Of a DNA stretch of 64,000 nucleotides, positions 17,915 through 42,900 are shown piece by piece. The number at the start of each line of letters is the position of its first letter. Position 1 is the first letter of the stretch. The position numbers were made by a program, and so were the translations under genes. The notes beneath the pieces were generated by a model. That model ran no database searches and was not told the DNA's origin. It saw only the letters and a list, made by a program, of their open reading frames with translations. This DNA is from Trichococcus alkaliphilus (GTDB lineage Bacteria > Bacillota > Bacilli > Lactobacillales > Aerococcaceae), in assembly GCF_003008695.1 (NCBI RefSeq), contig NZ_PXZT01000012.1, forward strand, positions 1-64,000, given 5' to 3'.

Positions 17915-18050
17915 AAAACCCGGTGAGGCGACCCTCGCCGGGAATCAGCGCCCGCAGCTGACCGAAAACCCGGTGAGGCGACTCTCGCCGGGAATCAGCG
18001 CCTCGCGGCCGATCGAAATCCCGGCGAGACAGCCCTCGCCGGGATTTTTT
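17915..18050. repeat. 51-bp palindromic repeat array A (three units)
   Basis: Three units begin at 17919, 17969 and 18020 (period 50-51). Each has a palindromic head, CCCGGTGAGG-N-CCTCGCCGGG, and a linker of about 25 bases ending ACCGAAAA. The third head is perfect and followed by TTTTTT (18018-18050), so it can act as an intrinsic terminator. Related arrays are at 19108, 32390 and 42779. The rest of the 17878-18146 gap holds no gene. Confidence 0.85.
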
Positions 18051-18146
18051 CTCCCAAAGAATTTTTAAGTCCAGGTATTTTGGCCTATTAATGAACAAAG
18101 ATTGAAATAAATCTTCTCCTATAGCGCAATTGGCAACAAATTACGT

Positions 18147-19085
18147 ATGTTTATGGTAGTAAATAAATATAATGGAGTGAGCGCTATCGCATACAAGGAA
18201 CGCACGAAACCAAAGCTTCTCCGCATCTATGAGGTTCTGTCCAATCGCATGATCCTGAGCAGTGATGACCACTATTACCACCTTCATCTAGATAAAGGTT
18301 TCGATGGGGAATACGGGTTAGATGGACTTACGGAACCATTATCTTCGCACTGCTTGGTACTGAATGATTTGCAGTTGGAATTCAGAAAATCTTCTTTTCA
18401 AGTCGATACACTTTTGATTTGTACTGACAAAATACGACTGTATGAAGTTAAGAATTACGAGGGAGTTCATACATGGGCGGATGATAAATTACTTAAATCA
18501 ACCGGTGTATATCTGGAAAATCCATGGGTACAATTGCAGCGGACTAAAGTGAAATTGGAATTGCTGCTTCAGTCCCTGTCGTGTCAAATGAAGGTGGAGG
18601 CGTATGTTGTCTATATCAATCCCGAATTCACTTTGTTGGAGGCGAAAGGTGATGGGAATTATCTTTTGCCTAGTCAGGTTCCCCTTCATTTTCGAAGTTT
18701 GCAAATGAAAGAGGCACCATCTTTTGAACAGCGACGGTTAGCTGAGCGATTGCTGCAGTTGCATAATCCGGATTATCCACCGCACATGAAACCAGTATAT
18801 TGCTATGAAGACCTGCGTAAAGGGATTGGTTGTCCGGCATGCGGGACTGTTGCGGAAGCTTTCCATGGACACTTCATAAAGTGTCAGACATGTGGTGAAA
18901 GAATGAATGTCAAAAAAGCAATCAAAAAAAACATTGAGGATTTTCGTCTCTTGTTCCCTGATGAAAAATTGACTACCAATCGCATGCTGGATTGGTGCGG
19001 TTCAGGCGATAAGGACCGCATATATCGGATTCTCAGAGAAAGCTATCAGCCTAAAGGAAATGCGCATGGCCGCTATTATATCTGA
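18147..19085 (+). CDS. NERD-domain protein with C-terminal zinc ribbon
   Basis: A protein of up to 312 residues with a nuclease-related domain (NERD) at about residues 45-150: FDGEYGLDGL, then QVDTLLICTDKIRLYEVKNYEG, where the D and the E-x-K pair match the PD-(D/E)xK nuclease core. A zinc ribbon follows (CPACG ... CQTCG at about 228-250), and the C-terminus is basic and helical. NERD proteins are thought to process or bind DNA or RNA; the exact role is unknown. The start is uncertain: the ATG at 18147 has no ribosome site, and a TATAAT at 18168-18173 lies inside the frame, so translation may start at GTG 18177 or later. The gene is bracketed by 51-bp repeat arrays A and B, which suggests a cassette or a late insertion. 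Confidence 0.7.
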   Translation: MFMVVNKYNGVSAIAYKERTKPKLLRIYEVLSNRMILSSDDHYYHLHLDKGFDGEYGLDGLTEPLSSHCLVLNDLQLEFRKSSFQVDTLLICTDKIRLYEVKNYEGVHTWADDKLLKSTGVYLENPWVQLQRTKVKLELLLQSLSCQMKVEAYVVYINPEFTLLEAKGDGNYLLPSQVPLHFRSLQMKEAPSFEQRRLAERLLQLHNPDYPPHMKPVYCYEDLRKGIGCPACGTVAEAFHGHFIKCQTCGERMNVKKAIKKNIEDFRLLFPDEKLTTNRMLDWCGSGDKDRIYRILRESYQPKGNAHGRYYI

Positions 19086-19107
19086 AATTCTGGAGTCCTG
19101 ATCCCAG

Positions 19108-19278
19108 CTGGTGCTGGCCGGGAACCAGCACACCGCGGACGACCGAAAACCCGGTGAGGTGGTCTTCACCGGGAAATAGCGCCCTGTGGCCGACCGAATA
19201 CCCTGTGAAGCGGCCCTCGCCGGGAACCAGCACCCCGGAGCCGGCCGGAAACCCGGTGAGGCAGCTCTCACCGGAAAA
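19108..19278. repeat. 51-bp palindromic repeat array B (about 3.5 units)
   Basis: Units start at about 19150, 19201 and 19252, with a partial one from 19108; the period is 51. Heads such as CCCGGTGAGG...TTCACCGGG are imperfect palindromes; linkers read AACCAGCACACCGCGGACGA or similar and end ACCGAAAA. Same family as array A, which lies on the other side of the NERD gene. Confidence 0.85.
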
Positions 19279-19357
19279 TTAAGCTCACTGGGGTTATCCG
19301 GGATATCCGGTAGACTTTTTTGATGCGCTTCAGTTCACGAATGGCCATCAAAAATGC

Positions 19358-19385
19358 TATACTGAATTTATTGAAACGTTTTCAA
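19358..19385 (+). promoter_or_regulatory. Promoter of the aldo/keto reductase with cre-like operator
   Basis: An extended -10 (TGCTATACT, -10 at 19358-19363) is followed at 19371-19385 by TTGAAACGTTTTCAA, a palindrome that resembles a cre site but is one base short of the consensus spacing. CcpA or another LacI-family repressor could bind it. Confidence 0.4.
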
Positions 19386-19415
19386 GAAAATCCGAAATGA
19401 AAGCTGGTATGACAA

Positions 19416-20339
19416 TTGAAAAAAATAAACATCGGCAATTCAGGTCTTTTCGCATCAGAAATTTCGCTCGGCATCATGCGTATGAACGCTTTGACGCATG
19501 AAGAAGCGACAGCGGTCATCCGCACGGCAGTGGACAACGGGATCGACTATTTCGATCACGCAGATATTTACGGCAGAGGGACTTCGGAGGAAATTTTCGG
19601 AAAAGCCTTCAAGGAACTCGGCATCGCGAGGGACAGCGTGATGCTGCAGACGAAGTGTGGCATTATACCGGGTGTCATGTTCGATTTCTCCAAAGAACAT
19701 ATCATCGCTTCGGTGGAAGGCAGCCTGAAACGCCTGCAGACCGATTATGTGGATGCTTTGCTTTTGCACCGGCCGGATACTTTGATGGAACCGGAGGAAG
19801 TTGCGGAAGCCTTTGATGAGTTGCACAAATCAGGGAAAGTGCGCCACTTCGGCGTCAGCAACCAAAATCCGATGCAAGTCGAATTACTGAAGAAAGTCGT
19901 CACGCAGCCATTATTGATCAACCAATTGCAGCTCAGCCTGACGCATGCACCGATGATCGATGCAGGCTTCAACGTGAATATGATGAACAGTCCATCGTTC
20001 GTGCATGACGGTTCCGTTTTGGAGTATAGCCGCATCACGGACATGACGATCCAACCATGGTCGCCTTTCCAAGTCGGAAACGGGAAAAAGGGGCTGTTCT
20101 TCGATCATCCCGATTATGTGGAGTTGAATGAAAAAATCGAAGCGATGGCGGATGACAAGGGCGTATCCCGTGAAGCGATCGCAATCGCTTGGTTGCTGCG
20201 TCACCCTGCCAAAATGCAGCCGATTGTCGGCAGCATGAATCCGGAGCGCATCGCGGCCATCTGTAAAGCTTCCGATGTGGAGCTGAGCCGCACCGAGTGG
20301 TATGAGCTCTACAAGGCTGCAGGCAAAAAGTTACCTTAA
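19416..20339 (+). CDS. Aldo/keto reductase (YdhF-like)
   Basis: A 307-residue NADPH-dependent aldo/keto reductase. The catalytic tetrad is visible: Asp and Tyr in FDHADIYG, Lys in LQTKCGI, His in LLLHRPD; the C-terminal cofactor region reads QPIVGSMNPERI. The size and the short N-terminus match the YdhF group of oxidoreductases. TTG 19416 is used because it is the only start in frame before the conserved beta-barrel strand (KKINIGNSGL); its ribosome site is weak. Substrate unknown. Single-gene unit with a bidirectional terminator behind. Confidence 0.88.
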   Translation: MKKINIGNSGLFASEISLGIMRMNALTHEEATAVIRTAVDNGIDYFDHADIYGRGTSEEIFGKAFKELGIARDSVMLQTKCGIIPGVMFDFSKEHIIASVEGSLKRLQTDYVDALLLHRPDTLMEPEEVAEAFDELHKSGKVRHFGVSNQNPMQVELLKKVVTQPLLINQLQLSLTHAPMIDAGFNVNMMNSPSFVHDGSVLEYSRITDMTIQPWSPFQVGNGKKGLFFDHPDYVELNEKIEAMADDKGVSREAIAIAWLLRHPAKMQPIVGSMNPERIAAICKASDVELSRTEWYELYKAAGKKLP

Positions 20340-20364
20340 ACAAAAAGCACGCTATTTTGTAATG

Positions 20365-20406
20365 AAAAAAGACCGAGATTCCAAATGGAGTCTTGGTCTT
20401 TTTTCT
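20365..20406. terminator. Bidirectional terminator
   Basis: AAAAAAGACCGAGATTCC ... GGAGTCTTGGTCTTTTTT between the convergent reductase and lipoprotein genes. Confidence 0.88.
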
Positions 20407-20462
20407 TTAAATGAGCAGTACGAGGAGCAACAGACTGTATCATGGTCGAATGTAATTTTTGA

Positions 20463-21227
20463 TCAAAAAGAAGAATCCGCTGTTTCGGCAGTCGTATCGG
20501 CTGGATCGAAGTCGGGAACAGTCTTCAATTTTTGCGCTTGATCGTACAGATCGAACTCGCCCGTCAGTTCCGTTGTAGCAATGGTTTTTTGATCAGTGTG
20601 CGTGACCGTGGAAAGATAGGAGAATGCTGTCATATAGAAGGTTTCGGCATCCAGACGGATAGCGATCTCGTAATCGGTCTGCTCGGATGGCAGGGTCTGG
20701 AACAGGTAGTTTATTTCTTTGTTCAGCGCATCATCGCTGCCGGAAAAGCTGAGCAAATACTCATCCCCTTCCAGTTCGAGGGTGCCGTATTCTTCAATGA
20801 TTTGGCTCAGTTCGATAAACGTCTCCAGCGGATAAACCTGCAGACTTGCGAGCGGGACATCGGGCGTGGCATAAGCGGTCCAATCGCCATCGTCGGTCCG
20901 GATGTAACCCACTTCAGGCGTCACATAGAACTCGGATTTTGTTGCGGGATAGTCGCTGTTTTTGTCAATCCGCTTTCCATAACCGGTCTTTTCTTCTGGG
21001 AACAGCGTCGCATCAGCGGTTGTGTACTGCTCGTTCACCGCTGTAGCTCCATTCAGGTCTTCTTTTGTGGTCGTTGTGGTTAACGAGACGTATTGGTGAT
21101 AGCTTTCAAGGTCGGCAGAACGGTTGATCAGGTTCTGCATGACTTCTTCCCCAGGTAGCGCAGTCGCGCAGGCGGAAAGCAGGAAGAGCGGAAGGAGCAG
21201 TAGCGCAGAAAGGATGATTTTTTTCAA
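20463..21227 (-). CDS. Putative lipoprotein, 254 residues
   Basis: A surface lipoprotein. The N-terminus (KKIILSALLLLPLFLLSACA) is a type II signal peptide with lipobox LSAC; the mature part is acidic and contains pieces such as MQNLINRSADLESYHQYVSL and SFSGSDDALNKEINYLF that recall the DUF6612/LolA-like family of Firmicute lipoproteins, but I cannot confirm this. TTG 21227 is chosen since GGAGG lies nine bases upstream; the TTG at 21242 overlaps that site. It is divergent from the AraC gene and ends at the 20365 terminator. Confidence 0.75.
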   Translation of the reverse strand: MKKIILSALLLLPLFLLSACATALPGEEVMQNLINRSADLESYHQYVSLTTTTTKEDLNGATAVNEQYTTADATLFPEEKTGYGKRIDKNSDYPATKSEFYVTPEVGYIRTDDGDWTAYATPDVPLASLQVYPLETFIELSQIIEEYGTLELEGDEYLLSFSGSDDALNKEINYLFQTLPSEQTDYEIAIRLDAETFYMTAFSYLSTVTHTDQKTIATTELTGEFDLYDQAQKLKTVPDFDPADTTAETADSSF

Positions 21228-21385
21228 GGGTGGTGCCTCCAAATCTATAGTAAAGGTTATGGGATTAGTCAGTTTGTTGGGGATCTGCCCGATTCGGGCA
21301 ATCTTTTCTCATTGTACAAGAGAATCTGGGATTACGAAAGGGTTGAATTTCATATGGGAAGTGAGCCACAGAGAAAAACGCGGGT

Positions 21386-21414
21386 TTGCTATAGCAAGGA
21401 GACCATTCTATAAT
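21386..21414 (+). promoter_or_regulatory. Promoter of the msm-locus AraC regulator
   Basis: TTGCTA (21386-21391), a 17-base spacer and TATAAT (21409-21414), ending 42 bases before the AraC start codon. Confidence 0.6.
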
Positions 21415-21456
21415 GAGAGCAACAGCTTTAAGAGGAATAAGACCGAGGTGATGAAA

Positions 21457-22293
21457 ATGGATGAGGATTTTTTTAAAGAAGAAATCTATTATAGAGACCT
21501 TTATTACACAACCAAAGGAAAAGAGGAGTGTGCTCCCAACCATAGTTTCGGACCAACTGTCCGGGAATATTTTTTGATCCATATCATTATGAAGGGTAAG
21601 GGCTACTTCGAGATTGGCAACAGCCGGTTCAACCTGAAAGAAGGCCAATTTTTCATCATTTATCCGAACGTGATAACCTATTATCAAGCGGATGAAGAGG
21701 ATCCTTGGGAATATTACTGGATCGGCATGCAAGGCGAGCAGTTGGAGGCCTTGCTGGAGGCCATCGGATTCCGGGTTTCGCATCCGGTGGGGAATGTGAA
21801 AAATTTCGGCCAAGTAAAAGAGATGATGCAGGAAATCATGGCGGCCAATCCATTCGATATCTTATCGCGGCTGCGGTTGCAAGGGCAATTGTACCTTCTG
21901 TTGAGCCTGTTGGGGCACGATCTGAACGGCACCGAAATCAAACAGATCGAGAAAATCAACAAAGGCGTCGAATATACAAAAAGGGCGCTTGAAATCATTA
22001 AAGACAGGTATCGGGATGTCGATTTTCAGATCGGTGACATCAGCCGGGAACTGTCTTTGAACGATTCCTACTTGACTTCGATTTTCCATAAAACGACAAA
22101 CCGGACGCCCCATGAATATTTGATCGAGTTCCGTGTTTTCAAAAGCCGTGAATATCTGGAAACGACGGATCTCAGCATTGCCGAGATCGCTGAGAAGGTC
22201 GGCTACAAAAATCCTTTGAGCTTCACGCGTATCTTCAAAAGCAAGATGGAGATGTCTCCGAGGGCTTATGTAAAGAAAGTCAAAACGAAATAG
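21457..22293 (+). CDS. msmR: AraC-family regulator of the alpha-galactoside locus (MsmR/RafR-like)
   Basis: A 278-residue AraC/XylS regulator. The N-terminal half is a cupin sugar-sensing domain (MKGKGYFEIGNSRFNLKEGQFFIIYP); the C-terminal 100 residues hold two HTHs (VDFQIGDISRELSLNDSYLTS and LSIAEIAEKVGYKNPLSFTR, then RIFKSKMEMSPRAYVKK). The position in front of msmEFG-gtfA-aga and the domain order match MsmR of Streptococcus mutans, an activator responding to alpha-galactosides. ATG 21457 follows GAGGTG by six bases; the frame is open far upstream but without a site. The msmE promoter has no good -35, as expected if an activator is needed. Confidence 0.85.
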   Translation: MDEDFFKEEIYYRDLYYTTKGKEECAPNHSFGPTVREYFLIHIIMKGKGYFEIGNSRFNLKEGQFFIIYPNVITYYQADEEDPWEYYWIGMQGEQLEALLEAIGFRVSHPVGNVKNFGQVKEMMQEIMAANPFDILSRLRLQGQLYLLLSLLGHDLNGTEIKQIEKINKGVEYTKRALEIIKDRYRDVDFQIGDISRELSLNDSYLTSIFHKTTNRTPHEYLIEFRVFKSREYLETTDLSIAEIAEKVGYKNPLSFTRIFKSKMEMSPRAYVKKVKTK

Positions 22294-22316
22294 TACAGCA
22301 AGGTAAACTGGACGAC

Positions 22317-22376
22317 AAAGGTCGGGCCACTTGGCAACGCTGCAAAGCCGGTTCCGGGCAGGTCCGGCCTTTTTGC
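22317..22376 (+). terminator. Terminator after the AraC gene
   Basis: A 12-bp stem AAAGGTCGGGCC / GGTCCGGCCTTT (with G-T pairs) and a run of T, separating the regulator from the transport operon. An inner hairpin (GCCGG/CCGGC) also forms. Confidence 0.65.
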
Positions 22377-22501
22377 TTTAACAGCAATACCTTGAGGGCA
22401 TACACGCTGATAATATTAAAATCAACAAAAAGGTATGTTTTTGTACGGCTGAATATCTATCGGACGCATCTTATATTTGGTATTATAAGGACATCAAAAC
22501 A

Positions 22502-22515
22502 AGTAAACGTTTACA
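22502..22515 (+). promoter_or_regulatory. cre site upstream of msmE
   Basis: AGTAAACGTTTACA matches the CcpA consensus TGWNANCGNTNWCA except for the first base and is nearly palindromic. It lies 105 bases before msmE. A -10-like TATACAAT occurs near 22580 without a clear -35. This fits glucose repression plus AraC activation. The 22377-22619 gap holds no gene. Confidence 0.7.
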
Positions 22516-22619
22516 AATCGATTGTTTTTGAACAGTTCAGGTGCAATTTTTCTAGGGTCCAATAGTTTCTTTGTTTTAAACTATACAATTTTATAGATAA
22601 ACGAAAAGGTGGAGAAGAG

Positions 22620-23894
22620 ATGTTAAAGAATTGGAAGAAAGTATCATTGGCTACAGTATTGTTATCAGGACTTGTTTTAGGTGCGTGCGGAAACGGTTCC
22701 GAGGGTGGAAGCGATTCTGGTGAAGTGACGATCACTTACGGCATTTGGGACAAAATCCAACAACCGGGTATGGAAGCGATAGCGGAAGCTTTCGAAGCGG
22801 AAAATCCTGACATCCAGGTAAACGTTGAAGTGACACCTTGGGATCAATATTGGACCAAATTGGAAGCAGGCGCACAAGGCGGCAGCATGCCGGATGTATT
22901 CTGGATGCACTCCAATGAAATCGCGAAATACACGACTGGCGGCGTCCTGATGGATTTGTCGGAAACTTACGCAAACAGCGAATTGACTTCCTTGGATCAT
23001 TTCCCGGAGGAATTGGTCGAACTGTATTCCGCTGATGATGCGCTCTACGGCATCCCGAAAGACTACGACACGATTGCGCTATGGTACAACAAAACGCTGT
23101 TCGACGCAGCTGGCGTTGCTTATCCGGATGAAACCTGGACTTGGGACACGATGTTGGCAGCCGCTCAAACGTTGAACGATCCCGACAACGGCGTATACGG
23201 CATTTTGGCTCCTTTGAACAGACAAGAAGGCTACCACAACTTCATCTTCCAGAACGGCGGCTACGTATTGTCCGATGACAAGACCGAATCCGGTTTCCGT
23301 TTGGACGAAACGATCGAAGCCGTGCAATGGTATGCGGATCTGAGCGTGAAACATGGCGTATCACCGACGCAAAGCCAATTTGCTGAAAATACGAACTTGT
23401 CCTTCTTCCAATCAGGACGTGGCGCGATGGGCTTCTTCGGCTCTTGGATGACAGGGGAAATGGCCAACAATGAATATACGGCTGCCAATGCTGATGTAGC
23501 GCCATTACCGCAAGGCAAACAAGCGGGAACAATATTCAATGGCTTGGCCAACTCCGTTGCGGCTTCAACTGAAAATGAAGAAGCAGCCCTGAAATTCGTC
23601 GAATTCCTGGGAACAGAGGAAGCGATGCGTCTGCAAGGCGAGAACGGCGCGGCTATCCCGGCTTATGAAGGAACAGAAGAAACATTCGTAAAAGCATACA
23701 GCCAATTCAATATGCAAGTCTATGTAGATCAAATGGAAAATGCCTACATCAAGCCTTACTCAGCAGAGACAGCCCGTTGGGAAGATGTCGAAAACAATGC
23801 TTTGATGCCTGTATTTGACGGTGCAACGACTGTTAAAGATGTGGCTGCAGACATCGTCTCCGGTGTTGAAGAAGTCTTGGCGAACGAAAAATAA
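22620..23894 (+). CDS. msmE: Sugar ABC transporter substrate-binding lipoprotein (MsmE-like)
   Basis: A 424-residue extracellular binding protein (family 1, CUT1 type). The lipoprotein signal is clear (ATVLLSGLVLGACGN), followed by a low-complexity Gly/Ser/Glu linker and a mature domain with GGSMPDVFWMHSNEIAKY and the conserved TIALWYNKTLFDAAGV. ATG 22620 follows GGTGGAGAAGAG. It is the first gene of msmEFG-gtfA-aga. By context it binds raffinose, melibiose or related alpha-galactosides. A hairpin without a T run follows it and probably stabilises the upstream message so that the binding protein is made in excess over the permeases. Confidence 0.9.
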   Translation: MLKNWKKVSLATVLLSGLVLGACGNGSEGGSDSGEVTITYGIWDKIQQPGMEAIAEAFEAENPDIQVNVEVTPWDQYWTKLEAGAQGGSMPDVFWMHSNEIAKYTTGGVLMDLSETYANSELTSLDHFPEELVELYSADDALYGIPKDYDTIALWYNKTLFDAAGVAYPDETWTWDTMLAAAQTLNDPDNGVYGILAPLNRQEGYHNFIFQNGGYVLSDDKTESGFRLDETIEAVQWYADLSVKHGVSPTQSQFAENTNLSFFQSGRGAMGFFGSWMTGEMANNEYTAANADVAPLPQGKQAGTIFNGLANSVAASTENEEAALKFVEFLGTEEAMRLQGENGAAIPAYEGTEETFVKAYSQFNMQVYVDQMENAYIKPYSAETARWEDVENNALMPVFDGATTVKDVAADIVSGVEEVLANEK

Positions 23895-23901
23895 TAAAAT
23901 A

Positions 23902-23940
23902 GAAGGCCGCTTATGGGGAACACTCCCATAAGTGGCTTTC
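23902..23940 (+). promoter_or_regulatory. Intercistronic hairpin between msmE and msmF
   Basis: GAAGGCCGCTTATGGG pairs with CCCATAAGTGGCTTTC around a short loop, with no T run. Most likely an mRNA-stabilising or partial-termination hairpin, common after binding-protein genes. Confidence 0.6.
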
Positions 23941-23962
23941 AATATATATAGAGGTGAAAGTG

Positions 23963-24901
23963 ATGAAATCGGATATAGCAATCCCTAAAGAAAAAACGCT
24001 CCGCACCGTGACCGCAAAGGAACGCAAAAGAAAAATGGCACTGTGGGGCTGGTTTTTTATCGCCCCAACATTTATCGGACTTTTGATCCTGAACGTCATC
24101 CCGTTATTCCAGTCGCTTTACATGAGTTTCCAGAATGTGAGTACATTCGGCACTTCAACCTTTGTCGGGATGGACAACTATCTGCAGATGCTGCAAGATC
24201 CTGAATTCTGGCAATCATTGAAAAATACCTTCTTCTACGCCGCTATCCAAGTGCCCATCACAATGATCCTGTCGCTGTTCTTTGCAGTACTGATGAACAC
24301 GAAGATAAAAGCGGTCGGACTGTACCGTACCATCTTCTTCCTGCCGATGATCGCCGCTCCGGCAGCCGTGGCCATGGTTTGGCGCTGGTTGTTCAATTCG
24401 GAATACGGCTTGCTTAATGCGGTGCTGGATAAACTTGGCTATTCCGGATCCATTATGTGGATCACCGATCCTGATGTGGCAATCTGGTCCATCATCATCG
24501 TCGGAATCTGGACGAATGTCGGCTACAACATGATCCTGCTGTTGGCGGGTCTGAAGGAAATACCCAAAGAATATTATGAAGCAGCTGTTGTGGATGGCGC
24601 CGGACCGTTGAAGCAATTCTTCGCGATCACGCTGCCGTTGCTTTCGCCGCAACTGTTCTTCGTTTCCGTAACAAGTGTCATCAGTGCCCTGCAGGTGTTC
24701 GATGTCATCTTCATGATGTTCGACCGCACGAACTTGGCGCTGAAGAGCACGCAATCGCTCGTGTACATGTTCTTCAATGAATCATTCGTGCTCAATGACA
24801 AAGGCTTCGGTTCGGCTGTCGCCATCTCATTAGTATTGATCATCATGGCGATCACCGGCATCCAGCTGTTGGCGCAGAAAAAATGGGTCACCTACGATTA
24901 G
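23963..24901 (+). CDS. msmF: Sugar ABC transporter permease (MsmF-like)
   Basis: A 312-residue CUT1-type permease with six membrane helices and the EAA loop that docks the ATPase (EYYEAAVVDGAGPLKQFFAI, EAAxxDGA). The start is taken at ATG 23963, six bases after GAGGTG; the GTG at 23954 overlaps that site. It forms a heterodimer with the next gene product, and the ATPase is probably MsmK encoded at 32659. The gene ends 12 bases before msmG. Confidence 0.9.
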   Translation: MKSDIAIPKEKTLRTVTAKERKRKMALWGWFFIAPTFIGLLILNVIPLFQSLYMSFQNVSTFGTSTFVGMDNYLQMLQDPEFWQSLKNTFFYAAIQVPITMILSLFFAVLMNTKIKAVGLYRTIFFLPMIAAPAAVAMVWRWLFNSEYGLLNAVLDKLGYSGSIMWITDPDVAIWSIIIVGIWTNVGYNMILLLAGLKEIPKEYYEAAVVDGAGPLKQFFAITLPLLSPQLFFVSVTSVISALQVFDVIFMMFDRTNLALKSTQSLVYMFFNESFVLNDKGFGSAVAISLVLIIMAITGIQLLAQKKWVTYD

Positions 24902-24913
24902 GAGTGAATAGAT

Positions 24914-25738: not shown

Positions 25739-25742
25739 ATAA

Positions 25743-25766
25743 AAGCTGAGCGGGTTCGTTCAGCTT
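25743..25766 (+). promoter_or_regulatory. Intercistronic hairpin between msmG and gtfA
   Basis: AAGCTGA-N10-TCAGCTT without a T run, directly after msmG. Probably a processing or stability element rather than a full terminator, since gtfA has no promoter of its own that I can see. Confidence 0.5.
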
Positions 25767-25794
25767 AACGATATTTGAGAATGAGGTAACTGTA

Positions 25795-27234: not shown

Positions 27235-27265
27235 CCAAAATGAATAGAGCCAAGGAGTGATGACT

Positions 27266-32333: not shown

Positions 32334-32370
32334 AATGAAGGAGGTGTCTCATGGAGGCACCTCCTTCATT
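32334..32370 (+). terminator. Hairpin after the amylase gene
   Basis: AATGAAGGAGGTG pairs perfectly with CACCTCCTTCATT around an 11-base loop; the T run is poor, so termination may be partial. Confidence 0.65.
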
Positions 32371-32389
32371 ATTGGTCGAGAGCGCTCTT

Positions 32390-32546
32390 CTCCCGTGAAG
32401 GGAGGCTTCGCCGAAGTTCGGCCCACATTCTGCTGGTGTCCTCCGATGAAGGCTGCTTCGTCGTAGTTGAATGCGATCATTGTCGGCGTGCTCCGGTCGG
32501 AAGGTCCTTCACCGGAGCTGCGCACTCCTCCAGCCAAAACACGCAA
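32390..32546. repeat. 51-bp palindromic repeat array C (three units)
   Basis: Heads start at about 32390, 32441 and 32491. Read on the minus strand the best head is CTCCGGTGAAGG...CCGACCGGAG, and the linkers include GACACCAGCAGAATGTGGGC. The linker and head match array D at 42779 in the opposite orientation, and arrays A and B more loosely. It fills the 32371-32558 gap between two terminators. Confidence 0.82.
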
Positions 32547-32559
32547 ATACATGCATAAG

Positions 32560-32595
32560 AAAAAGGCTGTCCTCAAAATGAGCGACAGCCTTTTT
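32560..32595. terminator. Bidirectional terminator after msmK
   Basis: AAAAAGGCTGTC ... GACAGCCTTTTT around a 12-base loop; it ends the minus-strand ATPase gene. Confidence 0.88.
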
Positions 32596-32658
32596 CTATG
32601 GGGGGAGGGTAGGTTAGAACTGGTAAGCGTCATTAAGGTGATGCCGGCCATCCTCTGG

Positions 32659-34663: not shown

Positions 34664-34766
34664 AAAGAAAAGCCAAATCGGCGGGTATTTGCGGATTGTT
34701 ATACGTAGAATAGGCTTTTTGTGATAAAATAAGATAAGTTGGTTCATACTTGAAGGAGAGATTCAT

Positions 34767-36149
34767 TTGGCAAAAAAAAATGCAGTGAAATACGTTTGTC
34801 AGGCTTGCGGGTACGAGTCGCCGAAATGGCTGGGACGTTGCCCGAACTGCAACACTTGGAACCAAATGGAGGAAGAACGGGAAGCGACGAAAGCAGTAAA
34901 GCAACAGCAGCGTTCCAATTTCAGCGGGAACGTACCTGAAGCGATCGCCATCCAGGACATTAAGACCGAGAATCTGCCGCGCGTCAAAACGCAGATGGAA
35001 GAAGTCAACCATGTGCTGGGCGGAGGCATCGTGCCCGGTTCGCTGATTCTGATCGGCGGCGACCCCGGCATCGGTAAGTCCACTTTGCTACTGCAGGTTT
35101 CGGCGCAGATCAACCAAGGCGGTCACCGCGTTCTTTACATCTCCGGAGAGGAAAGCGCTAGTCAGATCAAATTGCGGGCGGAACGGCTAGGGGTCAAGGG
35201 CACCGACTTCTACATCTACCCGGAAACGGATGTCGACGCGATCCGCAGCACGATTGAGCGGATCAAGCCGGAATTCGTCATCGTAGACTCGATCCAGACG
35301 ATGATCCATCCAGACATCACGAGCACGGCCGGCAGCGTAACGCAAGTGCGCGAATGCACCGCCGAATTCATGCGGATTGCGAAGAGCAACGACATCGCGA
35401 TTTTCCTCGTCGGACACGTGACGAAGGAAGGCGCCATCGCCGGACCGCGGATGCTGGAGCATATGGTGGATACAGTGCTGTATTTTGAAGGCGATCGTCA
35501 TCATGCTTTCCGGATCCTGCGTGCCGTCAAAAACCGTTTTGGATCGACCGACGAAATCGGCGTTTTCGAGATGATCGAGGGCGGCTTGCGCGAGGTGAGG
35601 AACCCTTCCGAACTGTTCCTGGAAGAGCGGCTCGCCGGAGCATCCGGATCTGCAGTCGTTGCCTCACTCGAGGGCACGCGCCCGATATTGGCGGAAATCC
35701 AGTGTCTGATCACCCCGACAGTCTTCGGGAATGCCCGCCGGACCGCGAGCGGATTGGATTACAACCGGGTTTCCTTGATCATGGCCGTTCTGGAAAAACG
35801 GGCGGGCTTGCTGCTGCAGAACCAGGATGCCTACTTCAAATCGACAGGGGGCGTGAAGCTGGATGAGCCTGCCATCGACTTGGCAGTGGCGGTCAGCATC
35901 GCTTCAAGTTATTGGGACAGCGAGACTTCCGCGACAGAGTGCTTTATCGGCGAAATCGGCCTGACCGGTGAAATCCGCAGGGTGAGCCGGATTGAGCAAC
36001 GCGTCAACGAAGCCCAAAAGTTGGGCTTCACGAAGGTGTATCTGCCGAAGAACAATATGGCTGGCTGGAAGCACCCGGAAGGGATCGAGATCATTCCTGT
36101 CGCAACGCTTCAAGAAACGCTGCGCAAAGTATTTCCGAATAAAAATTGA
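34767..36149 (+). CDS. radA: DNA repair protein RadA/Sms
   Basis: A 460-residue RecA-like helicase that acts in recombination and branch migration. It has the N-terminal four-Cys zinc finger ([18 protein letters not shown]), Walker [11 protein letters not shown], the RadA-specific KNRFG motif ([15 protein letters not shown]) and a C-terminal Lon-protease-like domain. TTG 34767 follows AAGGAGAG by about eight bases and gives the standard N-terminus. The stop overlaps the first possible codons of the yacL frame. Confidence 0.96.
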
Positions 36150-36175
36150 TGACAGAAGGAAAGAGAGGGAAGCCT

Positions 36176-37270
36176 TTGAAACGGAAAATCATTACGGCCG
36201 TCTTCCTGATGGTGGGCGGCAGCGCTGGTATTACAGCACTGCCTTACCTGTGGGAATTAGCGGGCATACGAAACAATCTTTTCAATAATGTTTTTGTTAA
36301 TTTTGGGGTTGGAGCACTTATATTTTATTTATTGTCATTTTTATTGATGAAATTGATTTTGGACATCATGCAAAAGATAGAAAATTATTTCAGCACCTTA
36401 TCGGTAAGCTACATGCTGTTCGGTTCGATCGGAACGATCATCGGGCTTGTGTTGGCTTGGTTGATCGGCATCCCGTTGACATCACTGCGGATTCCGGTCA
36501 TCAACGATGTGCTGCCGGCGATCCTGTCCTTGATCCTGGCCTACCTGGGATTCCGCGTGGGAACTACCCGGATCGAAGAATTCCGTAAACTGTTCGCAGC
36601 AAAACCGAAAAAACAGGAAGAAACACAGATGCTTGACCGCAAAGCGGATGACACTTTCCGCAAATACAAGATTTTGGATACGAGCGTCATCATCGACGGG
36701 CGCATCTACGATATCGCCAAAACCGGCTTCCTGGAAGGCGTCATCGTCATCCCGAACTTCGTGTTGCGTGAACTGCAGTATATCGCGGATTCCTCCGACA
36801 GCCTGAAGCGCGTCAGGGGCAGACGGGGATTGGACATCCTGAACAAACTCCAAAAAGAAGAGGATATCGTCGTGGAAAGTTACGACGGTGAATTCGAAGA
36901 GATTCCCGAAGTCGACAGCAAGCTGATCCGTTTGGCGAAACTGATCGACGGCATCGTCATCACGAACGACTACAACCTGAACAAAGTCTGCGAGTTCCAG
37001 AATGTTCCGGTATTGAACATCAATGCCTTGGCAAATGCCGTGAAGCCGGTCGTCATACCCGGTGAATACATGGTCGTCACCGTCATCAAAGTCGGAACGG
37101 AACGCAATCAAGGGGTGGCCTATCTGGATGACGGCACGATGATCGTCGTCGAAGAGGGACAGCATTACATGAACGAGACAATCGAAGTCGTCGTCACGAG
37201 TGCCTTGCAGACAGCTGCCGGCCGCATGATCTTCGCGAAGCCTGCGCATTCACAAAAAGGCATCAAATAG
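36176..37270 (+). CDS. yacL: YacL-like membrane PIN-TRAM domain protein
   Basis: A 364-residue protein with four N-terminal membrane helices (residues 5-125), a PIN nuclease-fold domain (LDTSVIIDGRIYDIAKTGFLEGVIVIPNFVLREL ..., with acidic site residues and VITNDYNLNKVCE) and a C-terminal TRAM-type RNA-binding part (GEYMVVTVIKVGTERNQGVAYLDDGTMIVVEEG). Length and order match B. subtilis YacL. TTG 36176 is chosen since AGAGGG precedes it and the resulting LKRKIITAVFL fits the YacL N-terminus; the open frame goes back to 36146, inside radA. Probably a membrane-bound RNase; the role is not settled. Confidence 0.9.
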   Translation: MKRKIITAVFLMVGGSAGITALPYLWELAGIRNNLFNNVFVNFGVGALIFYLLSFLLMKLILDIMQKIENYFSTLSVSYMLFGSIGTIIGLVLAWLIGIPLTSLRIPVINDVLPAILSLILAYLGFRVGTTRIEEFRKLFAAKPKKQEETQMLDRKADDTFRKYKILDTSVIIDGRIYDIAKTGFLEGVIVIPNFVLRELQYIADSSDSLKRVRGRRGLDILNKLQKEEDIVVESYDGEFEEIPEVDSKLIRLAKLIDGIVITNDYNLNKVCEFQNVPVLNINALANAVKPVVIPGEYMVVTVIKVGTERNQGVAYLDDGTMIVVEEGQHYMNETIEVVVTSALQTAAGRMIFAKPAHSQKGIK

Positions 37271-37318
37271 AAAATCCAGCACGACATAACCAGCTCCACA
37301 GAAAAGGGGATACTTCAT

Positions 37319-38788
37319 ATGACAAAGAAAATCCGCGTACGTTATGCACCAAGCCCAACCGGTAACCTGCATATCGGAAACGCCCGTACCGCATTGTTCA
37401 ACTATCTGTTTGCCCGCCATAACGACGGTGAATTCATCATCCGCACCGAAGATACGGACCAAAAACGCAACCTTGAACACGGCGAAGAAAGCCAACTGCA
37501 AAACTTGGCATGGTTAGGGATGGACTGGGATGAAGGTCCGGACAAACCAGGTAAATACGGCCCGTACCGTCAATCCGAAAGACAGCATATCTACGATCCG
37601 TTGGTCGATCAACTGCTTCTTTCCAACCGCGCCTACAAGTGCTACTGCAATGAGGAAGAGTTGGAAACGGAGCGCGAACAGCAAAGAGCACGCGGGGAAA
37701 TGCCACATTACGGCGGCAAATGCGCAAACTTGACGCCTTCCCAACAAGCTGAAAAAGAAGCACAAGGCATCACACCGGTCATCCGATTCCGTGTGCCAAT
37801 CGAAAATACCTACACTTTTGACGACATCGTTAAAGGACCGATTACATTCGAAGCCAGCAGCGTCGGCGGAGACTACATCATCCGCAAACGCGACGGCTTC
37901 CCGACCTATAATTTTGCGGTTGCCGTGGACGACCACATGATGGCCATCACCCATGTCCTGCGCGGGGATGACCACATCGCCAATACACCGAAACAAATGA
38001 TGATTTATGAAGCTTTCGATTGGAAAATACCTACTTTCGGACACATGACGTTGATCATCAACAGCGAAACAGGCAAAAAATTGAGCAAACGCGATGAAAC
38101 GATCCTTCAGTTCATCGAACAATACAAAGACTTGGGCTACCTGCCGGAAGCGATGTTCAACTTCATCACGCTGTTGGGCTGGTCACCTGTCGGAGAAGAC
38201 GAAATCTTCTCGAAAGACGATCTGATCAAGATGTTCGATCCGGAACGCCTTAGCAAATCGCCTGCCGCCTTCGACCAGAAGAAACTGGAATGGATCAACA
38301 ACCAGTACATGAAGAGCGCCGACCTGGACACAATCGTAACTTTGGCCGCGCCTCACTTGGTGGCTGCCGGCAAATTGCCGGAAAAACCTACTGAATCGGA
38401 CAGCGAATATGCGAAAAAGCTGATCAGTCTGTACCACGAGCAAATGAGCTATGCCGCTGAAATCGTTGCCCTATCGGAAATGTTCTTCGCCGATGAACTC
38501 AACCTGGACGCAGAAGCGCAAGAAATCCTGGCTGCCGAAACAGCGCCGACCGTACTTGCCGCCTTCAAAGAACAACTGCTTGCCATCGAGCCGTTCGAAG
38601 AAGCTGAAATCCTGGGCGCCATCAAAGCAGTCCAAAAAGAAACCAAGATCAAAGGCAAGAACCTTTACATGGCCATCCGTGTCGCCGTCAGCGGCCAAAT
38701 GCACGGGCCTGAAATCGGCAAGACCATCGAAGTGCTGGGCAGAGAGAAGAGCTTGGCTCACCTGAACAGCGTATTGGATAAAATGTAG
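37319..38788 (+). CDS. gltX: Glutamyl-tRNA synthetase
   Basis: A 489-residue class I synthetase charging tRNA-Glu (and tRNA-Gln where Gln is made by transamidation). HIGH-type motif in [14 protein letters not shown], the KLSKR motif at about residue 255, and the C-terminal helical anticodon-binding domain. ATG 37319 follows AAAAGGGGA. The gap from yacL is 48 bases, too short for a T-box. The string radA-yacL-gltX-cysE-cysS matches the usual Firmicute order but without disA and ispDF. Confidence 0.97.
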
Positions 38789-38855
38789 GACCGACAAAAA
38801 AGTATAGCAAAAGTGAGCTTATTCTATATAATAGATGGATAATCCAAAAAGGAGC

Positions 38856-38869
38856 ATGAAATGACTTGA
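38856..38869 (+). promoter_or_regulatory. Overlapping start-stop mini-ORFs over the cysE start
   Basis: GGAG ends at 38854. ATG AAA TGA is at 38856-38864 and ATG ACT TGA at 38861-38869; the second has the best spacing from the ribosome site and its stop overlaps the TTG start of cysE (38866). Ribosomes may start here, stop at once and restart on cysE. Confidence 0.4.
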
Positions 38870-39411
38870 ATAGATTACGCGAAACAATTCAAACCATAAA
38901 AGATCATGATCCGGCTGCAAGGAGTACGTTGGAAGTCGTTCTGACGTACCCGGGGTTACATGCCATTCTTATATATGATATTGCTCATTTTTTTTATAAG
39001 CGAAAATGGTACACCTTCAGCCGGGTGATTTCGCATCTAGGGCGTTTCTTGACCGGAATCGAAATCCATCCGGGAGCGACAATCGGCCGGCGTCTGTTCA
39101 TCGACCATGGCATGGGGATTGTCATCGGGGAAACAGCCGAAGTCGGCGACGATGTCATGATCTACCATGGCGTGACCCTGGGAGGCACCGGAAAAGACAC
39201 CGGCAAGCGCCATCCCACAGTCGGGAATAACGTGCTGTTGTCCGCCCACGTGCAGGTGTTGGGGCCGATCAAGATCGGCGACAATGCCAAAATCGGGGCA
39301 TCCGCAGTCGTCGTCAGCGAAATTCCGCCTGATGTCACAGCGGTCGGCATACCCGCAAAGATCGTCCGTTACCATAACCATAAGCTGAAAGAAGACAAAA
39401 CAATCGAATGA
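38866..39411 (+). CDS. cysE: Serine O-acetyltransferase
   Basis: A 181-residue acetyltransferase making O-acetylserine, the first step to cysteine. The N-terminal helical domain ([21 protein letters not shown]) and the left-handed beta-helix repeats ([41 protein letters not shown]) are typical; the catalytic His pair is in FIDHG and IYHGV. TTG 38866 gives the family N-terminus but sits 11 bases after AAGGAG, and two mini-frames (ATG AAA TGA, ATG ACT TGA) lie between; see findings. A TATAAT at 38827-38832 suggests its own transcript start. Confidence 0.93.
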
Positions 39412-39421
39412 TTAGCAAACG

Positions 39422-39444
39422 AAAAAGGGCGTCAGCCCTTTTTT
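39422..39444 (+). terminator. Intrinsic terminator between cysE and cysS
   Basis: AAAAAGGGC-GTCA-GCCCTTTTTTC. Its T run ends only eight bases before the cysS ribosome site, so no promoter fits between it and cysS. Confidence 0.85.
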
Positions 39445-39466
39445 CGAAGCTGGAAAGGAGTGCGCA

Positions 39467-40879
39467 ATGTTAAAAATCTACAACACCCTGACGCGCGAAA
39501 AAGAAGAGTTCCAACCGATCCAAAAGAATAAGGTGGGCATGTACGTCTGCGGCCCAACCGTCTACAACTACATCCACATCGGCAACGCGCGCAGCACAGT
39601 GGCTTTCGATACCGTCCGCCGCTATCTGGAATACCGCGGCTATGACGTGAATTTCGTCTCGAACTTCACCGACGTGGACGACAAGATCATCCGCGCCGCA
39701 AAAGAAATGGGCATTTCCGCGAAGGAAGTCGCCGAAAAGTTCATCGCGGCCTTCTATGAAGACACTGCGGCGCTGCATGTCGAAAAAGCGACGCTGAACC
39801 CGCGTGTGATGGAAAACATCCCGGAAATCATCGCCTTCATCGGCGAATTGATCGAAAAAGACTATGCCTATGCGGCTGACGGGGACGTCTATTACCGCAC
39901 CGGCAAGTTCAAGGACTACGGCAAACTGAGCGATCAATCGATCAAGGATCTGATCGTCGGCGCCAGCGAACGCTTGGATGCGGAAGAGAACATTAAGAAA
40001 GAAGATCAGCTCGATTTCGCGCTTTGGAAAGAAGCGAAGCCGGATGAAGTCTCCTGGGAATCGCCTTGGGGTCCGGGACGCCCGGGCTGGCACATCGAAT
40101 GCTCCGTGATGGCGACCAAATACTTGGGCGACACCATCGATATCCATGGCGGCGGCCATGACCTGACTTTCCCGCATCACGAGAACGAAATCGCGCAAAG
40201 CGAAGCCAAAACCGGCAAAACTTTCGCGAACTACTGGATGCACAACGGCTTCGTCACGATCGGCGAAGATGCTGAGAAGATGAGCAAGTCGCTCGGGAAC
40301 TTCGTGACGGTGCATGATATCCTGAAAGAAGTCGATCCGCAAGTCTTGCGTTTCTTCCTCGGAACAGCGCATTACCGCCGTCCTGTCAAGTACAGCGACA
40401 AGGCCATCGAAGAAGCCAAAATCAATCTGGATAAGGTCAAAATTGCCTATCAGAACGCCAACTACCGCCTGAAGGATGCCGTTTCAGCACTGCCTGAAGA
40501 TGCCGAAAAACTGGTTTTGTTCCAGAATCTGCAGGAACAGTTCGTTACCGAAATGGACGACGATTTTCAGGCGGACAACGCCATGACGATCGTTTACCAG
40601 TTCGCGAAGGAATTAAACATCTACGCAGAGGGCGAAGCCGTTTCCGAAGCGGTCATCACCAAAGCACTTGCATTGTATAAAGCGATGGTCGGCGTCTTCG
40701 GCGTCGTGCTGGAGGAAGAGGCTTTGTTGGATGATGACATCCAAACGCTGATCGATGAACGGACACAAGCCCGTACAGACAAAAATTTCGCCCGCAGTGA
40801 TGAAATCCGTGATTACCTGAAGGATCAGGGCATCATCCTGGATGACACTTCGCAGGGTACCAGATGGAGAAGAGTATAG
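39467..40879 (+). CDS. cysS: Cysteinyl-tRNA synthetase
   Basis: A 470-residue class I synthetase. HIGH-type motif [15 protein letters not shown], the zinc-ligand region around [20 protein letters not shown], and KMSKS ([10 protein letters not shown]), then the C-terminal DALR and anticodon parts. ATG 39467 follows GGAAAGGAG. It follows cysE across an intrinsic terminator and overlaps mrnC by one base, so it is translationally coupled to mrnC and must be transcribed by read-through or by regulated antitermination. Confidence 0.97.
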
Positions 40880-41289
40880 TGACAGAACACAATTGGAGCT
40901 TATTGAATGGTCTTGCCTTGGCCTATGTCGGCGATGCCGCTTATGAGACCTATATCAGAACACATTTATTAGAAAAAGGGCACACCAAACCCAACCAGCT
41001 CCACCGTCGTGCGACTTTTTTCGTTTCGGCTAAAGCCCAAGCGAAGCTGATGCACGCGATGCTTGCCAAAGATGGCTTCCTGAGCGAAGAAGAAATGGAC
41101 ATGTACCGTCGCGGCCGCAACAGCAAGAGCCATACGATCGCCAAAAATGCGGACGTAACGACATACCGCATCGCGACCGGATTCGAGTCGTTGATGGGTT
41201 ATCTGCATCTTTCTGGACAAGTGGCGCGACTGGAAGAGTTGATCCTTTGGTGTATCCAAGAAGTCGAGGAAAATAATTATGAAAAATAA
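40879..41289 (+). CDS. mrnC: Mini-ribonuclease III
   Basis: A 136-residue Mini-III RNase that trims the 23S rRNA precursor as a dimer. It has only the RNase III catalytic domain: LNGLALAYVGDAAYETYIR, where the Asp of GDAxYE is the signature, and a second acidic site near the C-terminus (ARLEELI); no dsRNA-binding domain. GTG 40879 overlaps the cysS stop by one base, with GGAGAAGAG upstream; the ATG at 40864 lies inside cysS and lacks a site. Overlaps rlmB by 11 bases. Confidence 0.93.
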   Translation: MTEHNWSLLNGLALAYVGDAAYETYIRTHLLEKGHTKPNQLHRRATFFVSAKAQAKLMHAMLAKDGFLSEEEMDMYRRGRNSKSHTIAKNADVTTYRIATGFESLMGYLHLSGQVARLEELILWCIQEVEENNYEK

Positions 41290-42115
41290 ACCGAACCGCG
41301 CGTTCAAGGACACCCGCAATGCACCGAAAAAGGGCAGACCGGAACCAAAACGACGCGATGATGCAGAAAAAGAAATACCCGAAAACGAAGACTTCGTGAT
41401 GGGACGCCATCCGGTACTGGAATTGCTGCGCTCCGATCGCGATGTCAACAAACTGTTCATCCAAGACGGATTGGGCGGAGAAAAATTGGGCGACATCATC
41501 AAGCTGGCGAAGGACCGCAAGATCCAGATCCAAGCGGTGCCGAAGTCCAAGCTGGATACTTTGTCCGACAATGCCGTCCATCAGGGCATCATCGCCGCTA
41601 CGGCCGCTTTCCAATATGCCGTGCTCGATGATCTGTTCGAAGCGGCTGCCGCCAAGAACGAAGATCCGTTCTTCATCATCCTCGATGGTGTCGAGGATCC
41701 GCATAACCTGGGTTCCGTGCTGCGTACCGCGGATGCCTGCGGTGCCCACGGAGTCATCATTCCGAAGCGCCGCGCAGTCGGCTTGACGGCGACCGTCGCC
41801 AAAGCATCGACAGGCGCCATCGAACATGTGCCGGTCGTGCGCGTCACGAACCTGCACCGCACCGTCGAAGAACTGAAGGAACGCGGTGTCTGGATCTACG
41901 CCACCGACATGTCGGGGCAGGATTACCGCCAGTGGGATACAACCTTGCCGTTGGCCATGATCATCGGCAACGAAGGCAAAGGCATCTCCCGCCTGTTGAA
42001 GGAATCCGCGGATGGTCTGTTGACCATCCCGATGGTCGGCCATGTCCAAAGTCTGAACGCCGGCGTTGCAGCCGGACTGATGATGTACGAAGTTTTCCGC
42101 AAACGCCACGTTTGA
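41279..42115 (+). CDS. rlmB: 23S rRNA (guanosine-2'-O-)-methyltransferase RlmB (SpoU family)
   Basis: A 278-residue SPOUT/TrmH methyltransferase for Gm2251 of 23S rRNA. A basic N-terminal tail (residues 1-40, KPNRAFKDTRNAPKKGRPEPKRR) precedes the substrate-binding domain (VMGRHPVLELLRSD) and the knotted catalytic domain: LDGVEDPHNLGSVLRTADACG, LAMIIGNEGKGIS and IPMVGHVQSLNAGVAAGLMMYE, the three SpoU motifs. ATG 41279 follows GAGGAAAATAATT and overlaps mrnC. Confidence 0.95.
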   Translation: MKNKPNRAFKDTRNAPKKGRPEPKRRDDAEKEIPENEDFVMGRHPVLELLRSDRDVNKLFIQDGLGGEKLGDIIKLAKDRKIQIQAVPKSKLDTLSDNAVHQGIIAATAAFQYAVLDDLFEAAAAKNEDPFFIILDGVEDPHNLGSVLRTADACGAHGVIIPKRRAVGLTATVAKASTGAIEHVPVVRVTNLHRTVEELKERGVWIYATDMSGQDYRQWDTTLPLAMIIGNEGKGISRLLKESADGLLTIPMVGHVQSLNAGVAAGLMMYEVFRKRHV

Positions 42116-42155
42116 TCTGCAGCGTCTGCGTACCCGAAGAAGCGAGGTGAAGGCC

Positions 42156-42674
42156 ATGTTGAAGAAAGAAATCCTGATAGTGGACGGCTACAATATGATC
42201 GGCGCCTGGCCGGAACTGGTGAAGCTGAAGAACCAGGACCTCATCGAAGAGGCCCGGGACCAACTGCTGCAGGCGCTGTCCGATTACCAAAGCTATGAAG
42301 GGAATGAAGTCTGGTGCGTCTTCGACGCCCAACTCGTTCCCGGCCTCACGAAAGAATATTCCAAATACCGGGTGAAGGTCATCTTCACCGCACAGGGAGA
42401 GACTGCCGACACCTACATCGAAGGCGTCGTCAAAAAACTGCGCAACGTGCTGACCGAAGTCTACGTCGCCACTAGCGACCTGGCCGAACAGCAGCTCGTC
42501 TTCTCGAAAGGCGCCCAGCGCATCTCCGCCATCGAACTCTACAAAGACATCAAGCGCTCCAAAAAAGCCTTGGAGGGCGAAAGCCACCGCTTCCGTGACC
42601 AACGCCAGCGCGGCACCTGGTCGGATGACCAACTGGAGACCCTGCGGGAGATCTATAAGGATATGCTAGATTGA
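42156..42674 (+). CDS. rae1: Rae1/YacP, ribosome-associated endoribonuclease (NYN domain)
   Basis: A 172-residue NYN (PIN-like) nuclease. The start of the fold (ILIVDGYNMIGAWPEL), the middle acidic strand (EVWCVFDAQLV), TAQGETADTYIEGVVKKL and VATSDLAEQQLVFSKGAQRIS carry the conserved Asp residues of the family; B. subtilis Rae1 cuts mRNA in the ribosomal A site. ATG 42156 follows GAGGTGAAGG; GTG 42147 overlaps that site. Last gene of the gltX-rae1 string, followed by a strong terminator. Confidence 0.93.
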   Translation: MLKKEILIVDGYNMIGAWPELVKLKNQDLIEEARDQLLQALSDYQSYEGNEVWCVFDAQLVPGLTKEYSKYRVKVIFTAQGETADTYIEGVVKKLRNVLTEVYVATSDLAEQQLVFSKGAQRISAIELYKDIKRSKKALEGESHRFRDQRQRGTWSDDQLETLREIYKDMLD

Positions 42675-42690
42675 AGTACCCTGATAATAT

Positions 42691-42738
42691 GAACACAAAG
42701 AAGAGGTCGTCTCGTTTTGAGGCGACCTCTTCTTTGTG
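42691..42738 (+). terminator. Terminator after rae1 (copy 1 of a duplicated terminator)
   Basis: CACAAAGAAGAGGTCG pairs with CGACCTCTTCTTTGTG. Nearly identical in sequence to the terminator at 43621-43670. Confidence 0.9.
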
Positions 42739-42778
42739 GAATTGAGTTTACAATAGCGGCCCCGAAATCCGTCCTCAA

Positions 42779-42900
42779 CTCCGGAGAAGGGACCGCCCAC
42801 CGGAGTCAGTACCCCACAATAAGCCTTAACTTCTTTGAAGGCTATATCATCGGAGTATACAAGCAAAATATGGGCCAAACTCCGGCCACAACGTGGGAAA
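42779..42900. repeat. 51-bp palindromic repeat array D (two to three degenerate units)
   Basis: Heads at 42779 (CTCCGGAGAAGG...CACCGGAG), 42830 and 42880 (partial), period 50-51. The linker ACAAGCAAAATATGGGCCAA matches CACCAGCAGAATGTGGGCCG of array C read on the minus strand. The rest of the 42739-43078 gap holds no supported gene; a TATACT near 43028 may be the -10 for the next gene. Confidence 0.75.

Follow-up and report, generated by a model that had tools for sequence, protein, structure and literature searches.

Three-dyad intergenic repeat arrays of Trichococcus, scarce in the terminus region: possible binding sites of a chromosome-organising protein

Introduction

Here, we report a family of intergenic palindromic repeat arrays seen in a 64,000-nucleotide stretch of Trichococcus alkaliphilus (assembly GCF_003008695.1, contig NZ_PXZT01000012.1, positions 1 to 64,000 of the forward strand; hereafter, the window). 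The window holds four arrays, A to D, each built of 26-bp dyads (heads) that recur every 50 to 51 bp and are joined by linkers. We describe the locus, the anatomy of the repeat, and its distribution in the genome and the genus, and we weigh what the arrays may be for. Genomes, contigs, and loci are cited by our G, C, and L numbers where needed.

Results

A preliminary description of the window, made from its letters, had placed four palindromic arrays with a 50- to 51-bp period in gaps behind genes; all four lie where it put them, with that spacing and the linkers it quoted, each at a gene 3' end. Array A (17915 to 18045, plus strand) has three dyads (17918 to 17943, 17968 to 17993, and 18019 to 18044), with a T-run after the last, and follows a Fer4_12/radical-SAM gene. 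Array B (19098 to 19278, plus strand) comprises a half unit, recognized by reading and with an approximate start, and three dyads (19149 to 19174, 19200 to 19225, and 19251 to 19276); it follows a NERD-domain gene (18147 to 19085, plus strand), which is held between A and B as direct repeats. Array C (32389 to 32520, minus strand), a full three-dyad element (32391 to 32416, 32441 to 32466, and 32492 to 32517), sits between the convergent ends of an alpha-amylase gene and an ABC ATPase gene. Array D (42776 to 42896, plus strand), behind a YacP-like gene, has a degenerate third dyad; it was missed by a stricter array scan and found with the pair model and element profile introduced below.

Three further features around array C were made out by reading: a half dyad of the TTGGCYGGAG type, with a shortened linker, at the 5' end of the element (32521 to 32540, minus strand) and, outside the element, a terminator-like stem for each neighboring gene (alpha-amylase, 32334 to 32370, plus strand; ABC ATPase, 32558 to 32597, minus strand). 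By the same means, an extra linker and half dyad were seen at one end of array C orthologs (longer in ortholog L214), and the alpha-amylase stem was not seen in the G067, G068, and G060 orthologs. Rfam models at gathering thresholds gave no match in the window.

Alignments of A with B and of C with D beat 500 of 500 dinucleotide shuffles, whereas pairwise alignment of A or B with C or D was not above chance (n = 500). The arrays therefore fall into two subfamilies, S1, which has CTCCGG heads and takes in C, D, and most of the copies seen, and S2, with TCCCGG in the outer arms of the heads (A and B). The single family that had been proposed thus lacks support from pairwise alignment across the subfamilies and keeps it in what both have in common, namely, the core CCGGYGAR-N6-YTCRCCGG, the 50- to 51-bp spacing, and the 3' location. 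That S1 and S2 descend from a common ancestor is likely; the alignment is no proof of it.

The 26-bp dyad (CTCCGGYGAR-N6-YTCRCCGGAG type, up to 3 mismatches) was found in 187 copies in the T. alkaliphilus genome, and the reversed pattern, used as a control, in 7. A unit-pair model built from all four arrays (best 150 of 1039 candidates scored) gave at least 139 matches at an E value of ≤10 and 93 at ≤1e-3, the latter falling in 57 loci; this bears out a palindromic family that differs from CRISPR, lies between genes, and is dispersed beyond the four sites. Array C has dispersed relatives in 13 of 13 genus genomes.

What the preliminary description had overlooked, besides a depletion at the terminus, is that S1 mostly takes the form of one polar element of about 130 bp (dyad, linker, dyad, linker, dyad). 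By profile iteration, 122 copies could be aligned, and alignment A3 holds 63 diverse copies; heads were scored with a position weight matrix (PWM) frozen on pattern-defined heads, as an iterated PWM drifted into coding sequence. In a 729-kb T. alkaliphilus sample, three heads were present in 18 of the 25 arrays with at least two, one weak two-head array lay inside a predicted gene, and a reversed-PWM control yielded no array of two or more heads. Among the 176 elements of all fetched loci, three heads scored above the PWM floor in 92, two in 68, one in 15, and none in 1; the third dyad is therefore often degenerate. The head-to-head distance was 50 or 51 bp in 209 of 242 cases. The best-kept columns are CTCCGG and CCGGAG, with the inner arms (YGAR/YTCR) less conserved. 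Units inside one element align head to tail, a test that rests on the linkers because the dyads are near-symmetric; linker ends are partly conserved across loci, and the repeats are degenerate. Much longer arrays also occur: within 8 kb at T. ilyis locus L085 (668 to 6982), 47 heads are present at up to 4 mismatches, in intergenic arrays between genes that read as ordinary (flavodoxin-like and aminopeptidase-like), and L061 and L063 hold arrays akin to these. In G071 (contig C1, about 1.476 to 1.55 Mb), whole elements stand in tandem every 169 to 191 bp, close to the edge of the element-poor region.

At up to 2 mismatches, every one of the 13 Trichococcus genomes carries heads (35 to 285 per genome); of 63 other genomes of the family, 57 have none and 6 have 1 to 3, as in the control. 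Among 398 genomes of the class (up to 1 mismatch), T. alkaliphilus has 74 heads and 7 others have one each. A scan of GTDB contigs found at least 116 stretches with heads, and the 80 listed comprise 46 from Trichococcus, 7 from "Sedimentibacter sp. SX930" (MUZD01 contigs; L052, L057, L071, L084, L088, L112, and L119), and 27 others. Among these listed matches, partners at 50 to 51 bp occur in Trichococcus and in "Sedimentibacter sp. SX930" and are absent from the remaining 27, of which one has a 4-mismatch head 101 bp away. Sharing with a Clostridia genome was rejected, since "Sedimentibacter sp. SX930" is Trichococcus (mostly 84 to 95% DNA identity over kilobases, with synteny). Within the genomes searched, the array family is restricted to the genus.

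Spread by plasmids or phages was also rejected: one S1 element used as a query had no match in either collection, from which records very close to the T. alkaliphilus genome were possibly excluded. Viral contigs gave three single heads, none with a partner at 50 to 51 bp. No description of these repeats was found in the titles and abstract openings of the open-access Trichococcus literature, and a term search in the main text of a Trichococcus genome paper (PMC6950789) gave no "repeat," "palindrom," or "intergenic."

With genes called by a simple open reading frame (ORF) finder, 4 of the 176 elements lie inside a predicted gene. The flanking genes of 142 elements define 56 convergent, 83 codirectional, and 3 divergent gaps; in the T. 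alkaliphilus sample, divergent gaps hold 1 of 24 elements and make up 81 of the 299 gaps of at least 130 bp. Regulation of divergent promoters was rejected as a role. All three divergent-gap elements were looked at, and the one at L053 (4959 to 5656) adjoins what reads as the gene of a small AbrB-like protein. Relative to transcription, 42 elements have the same orientation and 27 the opposite one.

Elements are depleted over 0.6 to 0.9 Mb roughly opposite oriC. G071 and G068 were scanned with the profile (best 150 of 768 and best 150 of 1037 candidates; 20 opposite-strand duplicates dropped and 130 rows kept). In the closed genome G071 (dnaA at 2.399 Mb), none of the 56 loci among the matches listed lies between 0.391 and 1.346 Mb, and the longest empty arc exceeds 20,000 of 20,000 random placements. 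Direct scanning of 0.40 to 1.10 Mb found 3 elements in 302 gaps of at least 100 bp (a strong one at 479465 and two weak ones), compared with 16 elements, one of them weak, in 170 gaps over the 400 kb around oriC (p = 1.5e-5). Two further 20-kb stretches of this desert held no head; a 100-kb border block, picked because elements were listed there, held 6 elements, one weak. GC skew and gene strand flip within 0.70 to 0.80 Mb, inside the desert, and GC content is 0.454 in both the desert and oriC stretches.

For G068, in which dnaA lies at 1.647 Mb, 44 loci were listed, and the longest arc free of them extends from 2.54 to 0.217 Mb, a length reached by 50 of 20,000 random placements; three 20-kb stretches of it held one two-dyad array, which is absent from the listed loci. 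The 350-kb T. alkaliphilus contig C11, collinear with the G071 desert, has no element in 139 gaps versus 26 in 342 for C18, C19, and the window (p = 1.8e-4), and it holds none of the 57 unit-pair loci (best 150 of 1039 candidates; P = 7.8e-4). The window itself maps about 54 to 106 kb from the G071 dnaA. The loci are distributed as a step, with no gradient from oriC, which argues against gene dosage. Orientation relative to replication, judged by eye on the listed loci, is biased in G071 and shows no bias in G068.

Evolutionary rates were taken from 60 ortholog pairs, at loci chosen for carrying heads; the pairs share descent and are not independent. No match to the profile was demanded of the target copy, so selection of the source copy should, if anything, make the arms look less conserved. 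Substitutions per site were fewest in the arm core (0.069), followed by noncoding flanks (0.128, superseding a flank rate of 0.203 with end gaps counted), other arm bases (0.168), linkers (0.255), and loops (0.275). Linker length was kept to within 2 bp in 116 of 120 comparisons: 68 showed no change, 43 a difference of 1 bp, and 5 one of 2 bp. Of the other four, one differed by 4 bp and three by a whole unit (+50). Indels of at least 3 bp account for 64% of the 383 in noncoding flanks (95 pairs) versus 1 of the 49 non-unit linker length changes. With the core rate below that of the flanks and the net length change small, the core and pitch are therefore kept and the linker sequence is free. 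The earlier proposal that head and linker are both kept holds for the dyad core; the linker is kept more in length than in sequence. Judged on sequence, a kept core and pitch are what an array of protein sites would need and not what would be expected of a decaying repeat.

An RNA hairpin function would predict covarying arms and more G-T than A-C mismatches. Over 427 heads, there are 409 G-T and 396 A-C mismatches. In alignment A3, 84.9% of arm positions pair versus 84.2% after shuffling, a level that 16 of 500 shuffles attain; for the covariation score, the figures are 0.142 and 0.131, with 18 of 500 shuffles attaining the former. RNAalifold did not choose the local hairpins, and its covariation term was 0.02. 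RNA hairpins were rejected on the near-independence of the arms and the near-equality of G-T and A-C mismatches over all heads. A T-tract was found in 2 of the 427 S1 dyads, a count that covers S1 dyads only and leaves S2 arrays A and B outside it. Because the core is conserved, linker length is kept, the arms hardly covary, and T-tracts are rare, the data speak for dyads as sites of a dimeric protein on double-stranded DNA more than for terminators or RNA hairpins.

Copies have been gained or lost, yet many persist. The locus C element is present in 8 of 11 genomes with a readable gap and absent, by reading, from G060, G070, and G064. At locus A/B, 6 of 12 genomes have the NERD gene with heads on both sides, 5 lack both gene and heads, and G071 has a single array and no NERD gene. 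The two arrays flanking the NERD gene in G066 have equal head scores, as though recombination had kept them uniform. A clean indel was seen at T. alkaliphilus C18:28109-28137 against two species. At the one clean empty site, only a short CTCCG-type sequence is shared, compatible with a small target duplication as well as with a deletion.

Elsewhere in the window, the hexamer (CAAACC)n is repeated in tandem about 10 times (56990 to 57052) at the 3' end of ORF 55685 to 57061.

Discussion

Among known systems, the arrays recall the binding sites of Noc in Bacillus subtilis (NBS) and of SlmA in Escherichia coli (SBS), which, in the accessible portions of two papers, are under-represented in the terminus region (PMC4726725, PMC4331003); the first of these, in the same portion, presents Noc and SlmA as the two sequence-specific nucleoid-occlusion proteins described, mutually unrelated (PMC4726725). 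The likeness lies in tens of dispersed palindromic sites with terminus depletion (here, depleted and not absent, and with putative binding); the arrays differ in having mostly three dyads at a fixed 50 to 51 bp, another sequence, and a range of one genus only. The noc gene (TIGR04285) was above the cut-off in 0 of 13 Trichococcus genomes. Matches under the cut-off occur in 12 of the 13, with none in G063 (63% complete). The T. alkaliphilus match reads as a ParB-like protein beside parA, with no gene predicted in the gap from parA to what reads as an rsmG-like end; at L317 (1339 to 3589), what read as parA and parB come after an rsmG-like end, with no noc gene predicted in between. G071 has, near dnaA, an exact copy of the parS sequence. 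The NBS sequence ATTTCCCGGGAAAT was found (up to 2 mismatches) 5 times in the 400-kb oriC stretch and 11 times in the 700-kb desert of G071, with neither terminus depletion nor enrichment around oriC. By analogy, the arrays may work like such a system, a view that we take with moderate confidence; they are not a member of the Noc system. No paper was found that joins nucleoid occlusion with Lactobacillales and the terminus.

The arrays also resemble repetitive extragenic palindromes (REP) and bacterial interspersed mosaic elements (BIME) as regularly spaced extragenic palindromes with many copies and variable arrays, and the 187 heads of the T. alkaliphilus genome exceed the roughly 100 extragenic palindrome copies used as a criterion for REP. 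Unlike REP/BIME, for which the part of PMC2817692 consulted describes preserved palindromes in alternating orientation, they have dyads set head to tail at a fixed pitch, with arms that hardly covary. Dependence on a REP-type transposase, which had been suggested, found no backing: the genus has 47 Y1-transposase matches, and none of the 30 loci fetched has heads on both sides. Two of the 30 have a head within 800 bp, one headless locus (L280) has a motif like that of REP-associated tyrosine transposases, and G062 has 259 heads and no Y1 match.

EFAR of Enterococcus faecalis are small modular intergenic repeats that act as bidirectional terminators; unlike them, the arrays mostly lack T-tracts and are constrained in their internal spacing. 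The general likeness, as small modular intergenic repeats of Lactobacillales, extends to BOX and RUP of Streptococcus pneumoniae, so characterized in the accessible part of PMC3049150. A palindromic repeat with regular spacing also recalls CRISPR, from which the arrays differ in their usually three degenerate units, linkers partly shared between loci, and copies dispersed genome-wide.

Tentatively, we interpret the arrays as clusters of binding sites for a putative chromosome-organising protein. Each 26-bp dyad would be a double-stranded DNA site for a dimeric sequence-specific protein, with one half-site per subunit, and three dyads at the 50- to 51-bp pitch would seed one nucleoprotein complex, in which the bound protein may multimerise. 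Such complexes, placed behind genes, would leave promoters undisturbed and, lying across the chromosome except in the terminus region, would mark that part of the nucleoid which is replicated and segregated early. Such a map would most likely serve chromosome organisation or the coupling of division to replication, as for Noc and SlmA sites; possibly, the arrays constitute a nucleoid-occlusion system.

Several observations count against this interpretation. Non-core arm bases (0.168) change less than linkers and not less than flanks (0.128); linkers and loops outpace the flanks, and the whole element may simply be fast-evolving. Linkers do not have fewer indel events per site (0.038) than flanks (0.019); what is small is the net size alone. 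Three heads above the PWM floor are present in only 92 of 176 elements, with two in 68. Sense-oriented codirectional heads have a mild excess of G-T over A-C mismatches (197 versus 149), covariation lies slightly over the shuffles (on three measures, 16 to 24 of the 500 reach it, and on two others, 59 and 233), and 16 of 16 double changes from a Watson-Crick pair keep pairing in the ortholog pairs, so some palindrome repair or a weak structural effect may be at work. The desert is not absolute (G071 479465, two weak elements, and the G068 two-dyad array); C19 beyond 100 kb (about 229 kb), which is not placed on the G071 stretches, is also without S1 elements; and the three genomes share synteny and descent and are not three independent tests. 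Elements are, moreover, gained and lost, which fits a mobile repeat.

Because the non-core arm bases are not more conserved than the flanks, we hold the binding-site interpretation only tentatively and regard a mobile repeat as possible, if rather doubtful. By that account, the arrays are a non-autonomous repeat like BIME or miniature inverted-repeat transposable elements, the spreading enzyme is gone or unrecognised, and the patterns reflect insertion tolerance or deletion. It draws on the dispersed copies, their presence or absence between species, their abundance in each genome, and the arrays of dozens of tandem dyads that other species carry, as well as on those arm bases. It sits less well with a dyad core and net spacing kept in orthologs, with the lack of a head-flanked Y1 transposase among 30 loci, with a single clean empty site that fits target duplication or deletion alike, and with a desert that is step-like, equal in GC, and rich in free gaps. 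A mobile-repeat origin is also compatible with protein binding, as a repeat family could be taken over as sites.

BIMEs of E. coli are binding sites of DNA gyrase. Sites for gyrase or another topology protein, draining supercoils behind genes, would suit the 3' and convergent location and the anatomy of a protein site; we judge this improbable, since gyrase is universal, yet the array family was found in one genus only, and a desert, in which 36 convergent gaps lie, is not predicted. Least probable of all are transcription terminators or EFAR-like 3' mRNA hairpins acting as RNA on either strand, which match the position behind genes and often between convergent ones, the T-run at the last dyad of array A, and the mild sense-oriented G-T excess, but not the scarcity of T-tracts, the terminator-like stems lying outside element C, the hardly covarying arms, or the terminus desert, which RNA action does not predict.

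If the arrays are binding-site clusters of a chromosome-organising protein, a more specific and, at present, unlikely proposal is that Trichococcus, in which no Noc was found, has independently evolved a nucleoid-occlusion or chromosome-timing system, with a putative genus-specific dimeric protein that would assemble on the triple-dyad arrays, set behind genes over nearly all of the chromosome but the terminus, and would permit division only once the array-bearing part of the chromosome leaves mid-cell. A site map like that of Noc and SlmA in such a genus would make the array a bait, and thus a handle toward another such protein. Even if its role differs, three-site arrays of fixed pitch that become scarce near the terminus would represent an unusual level of chromosome organisation.

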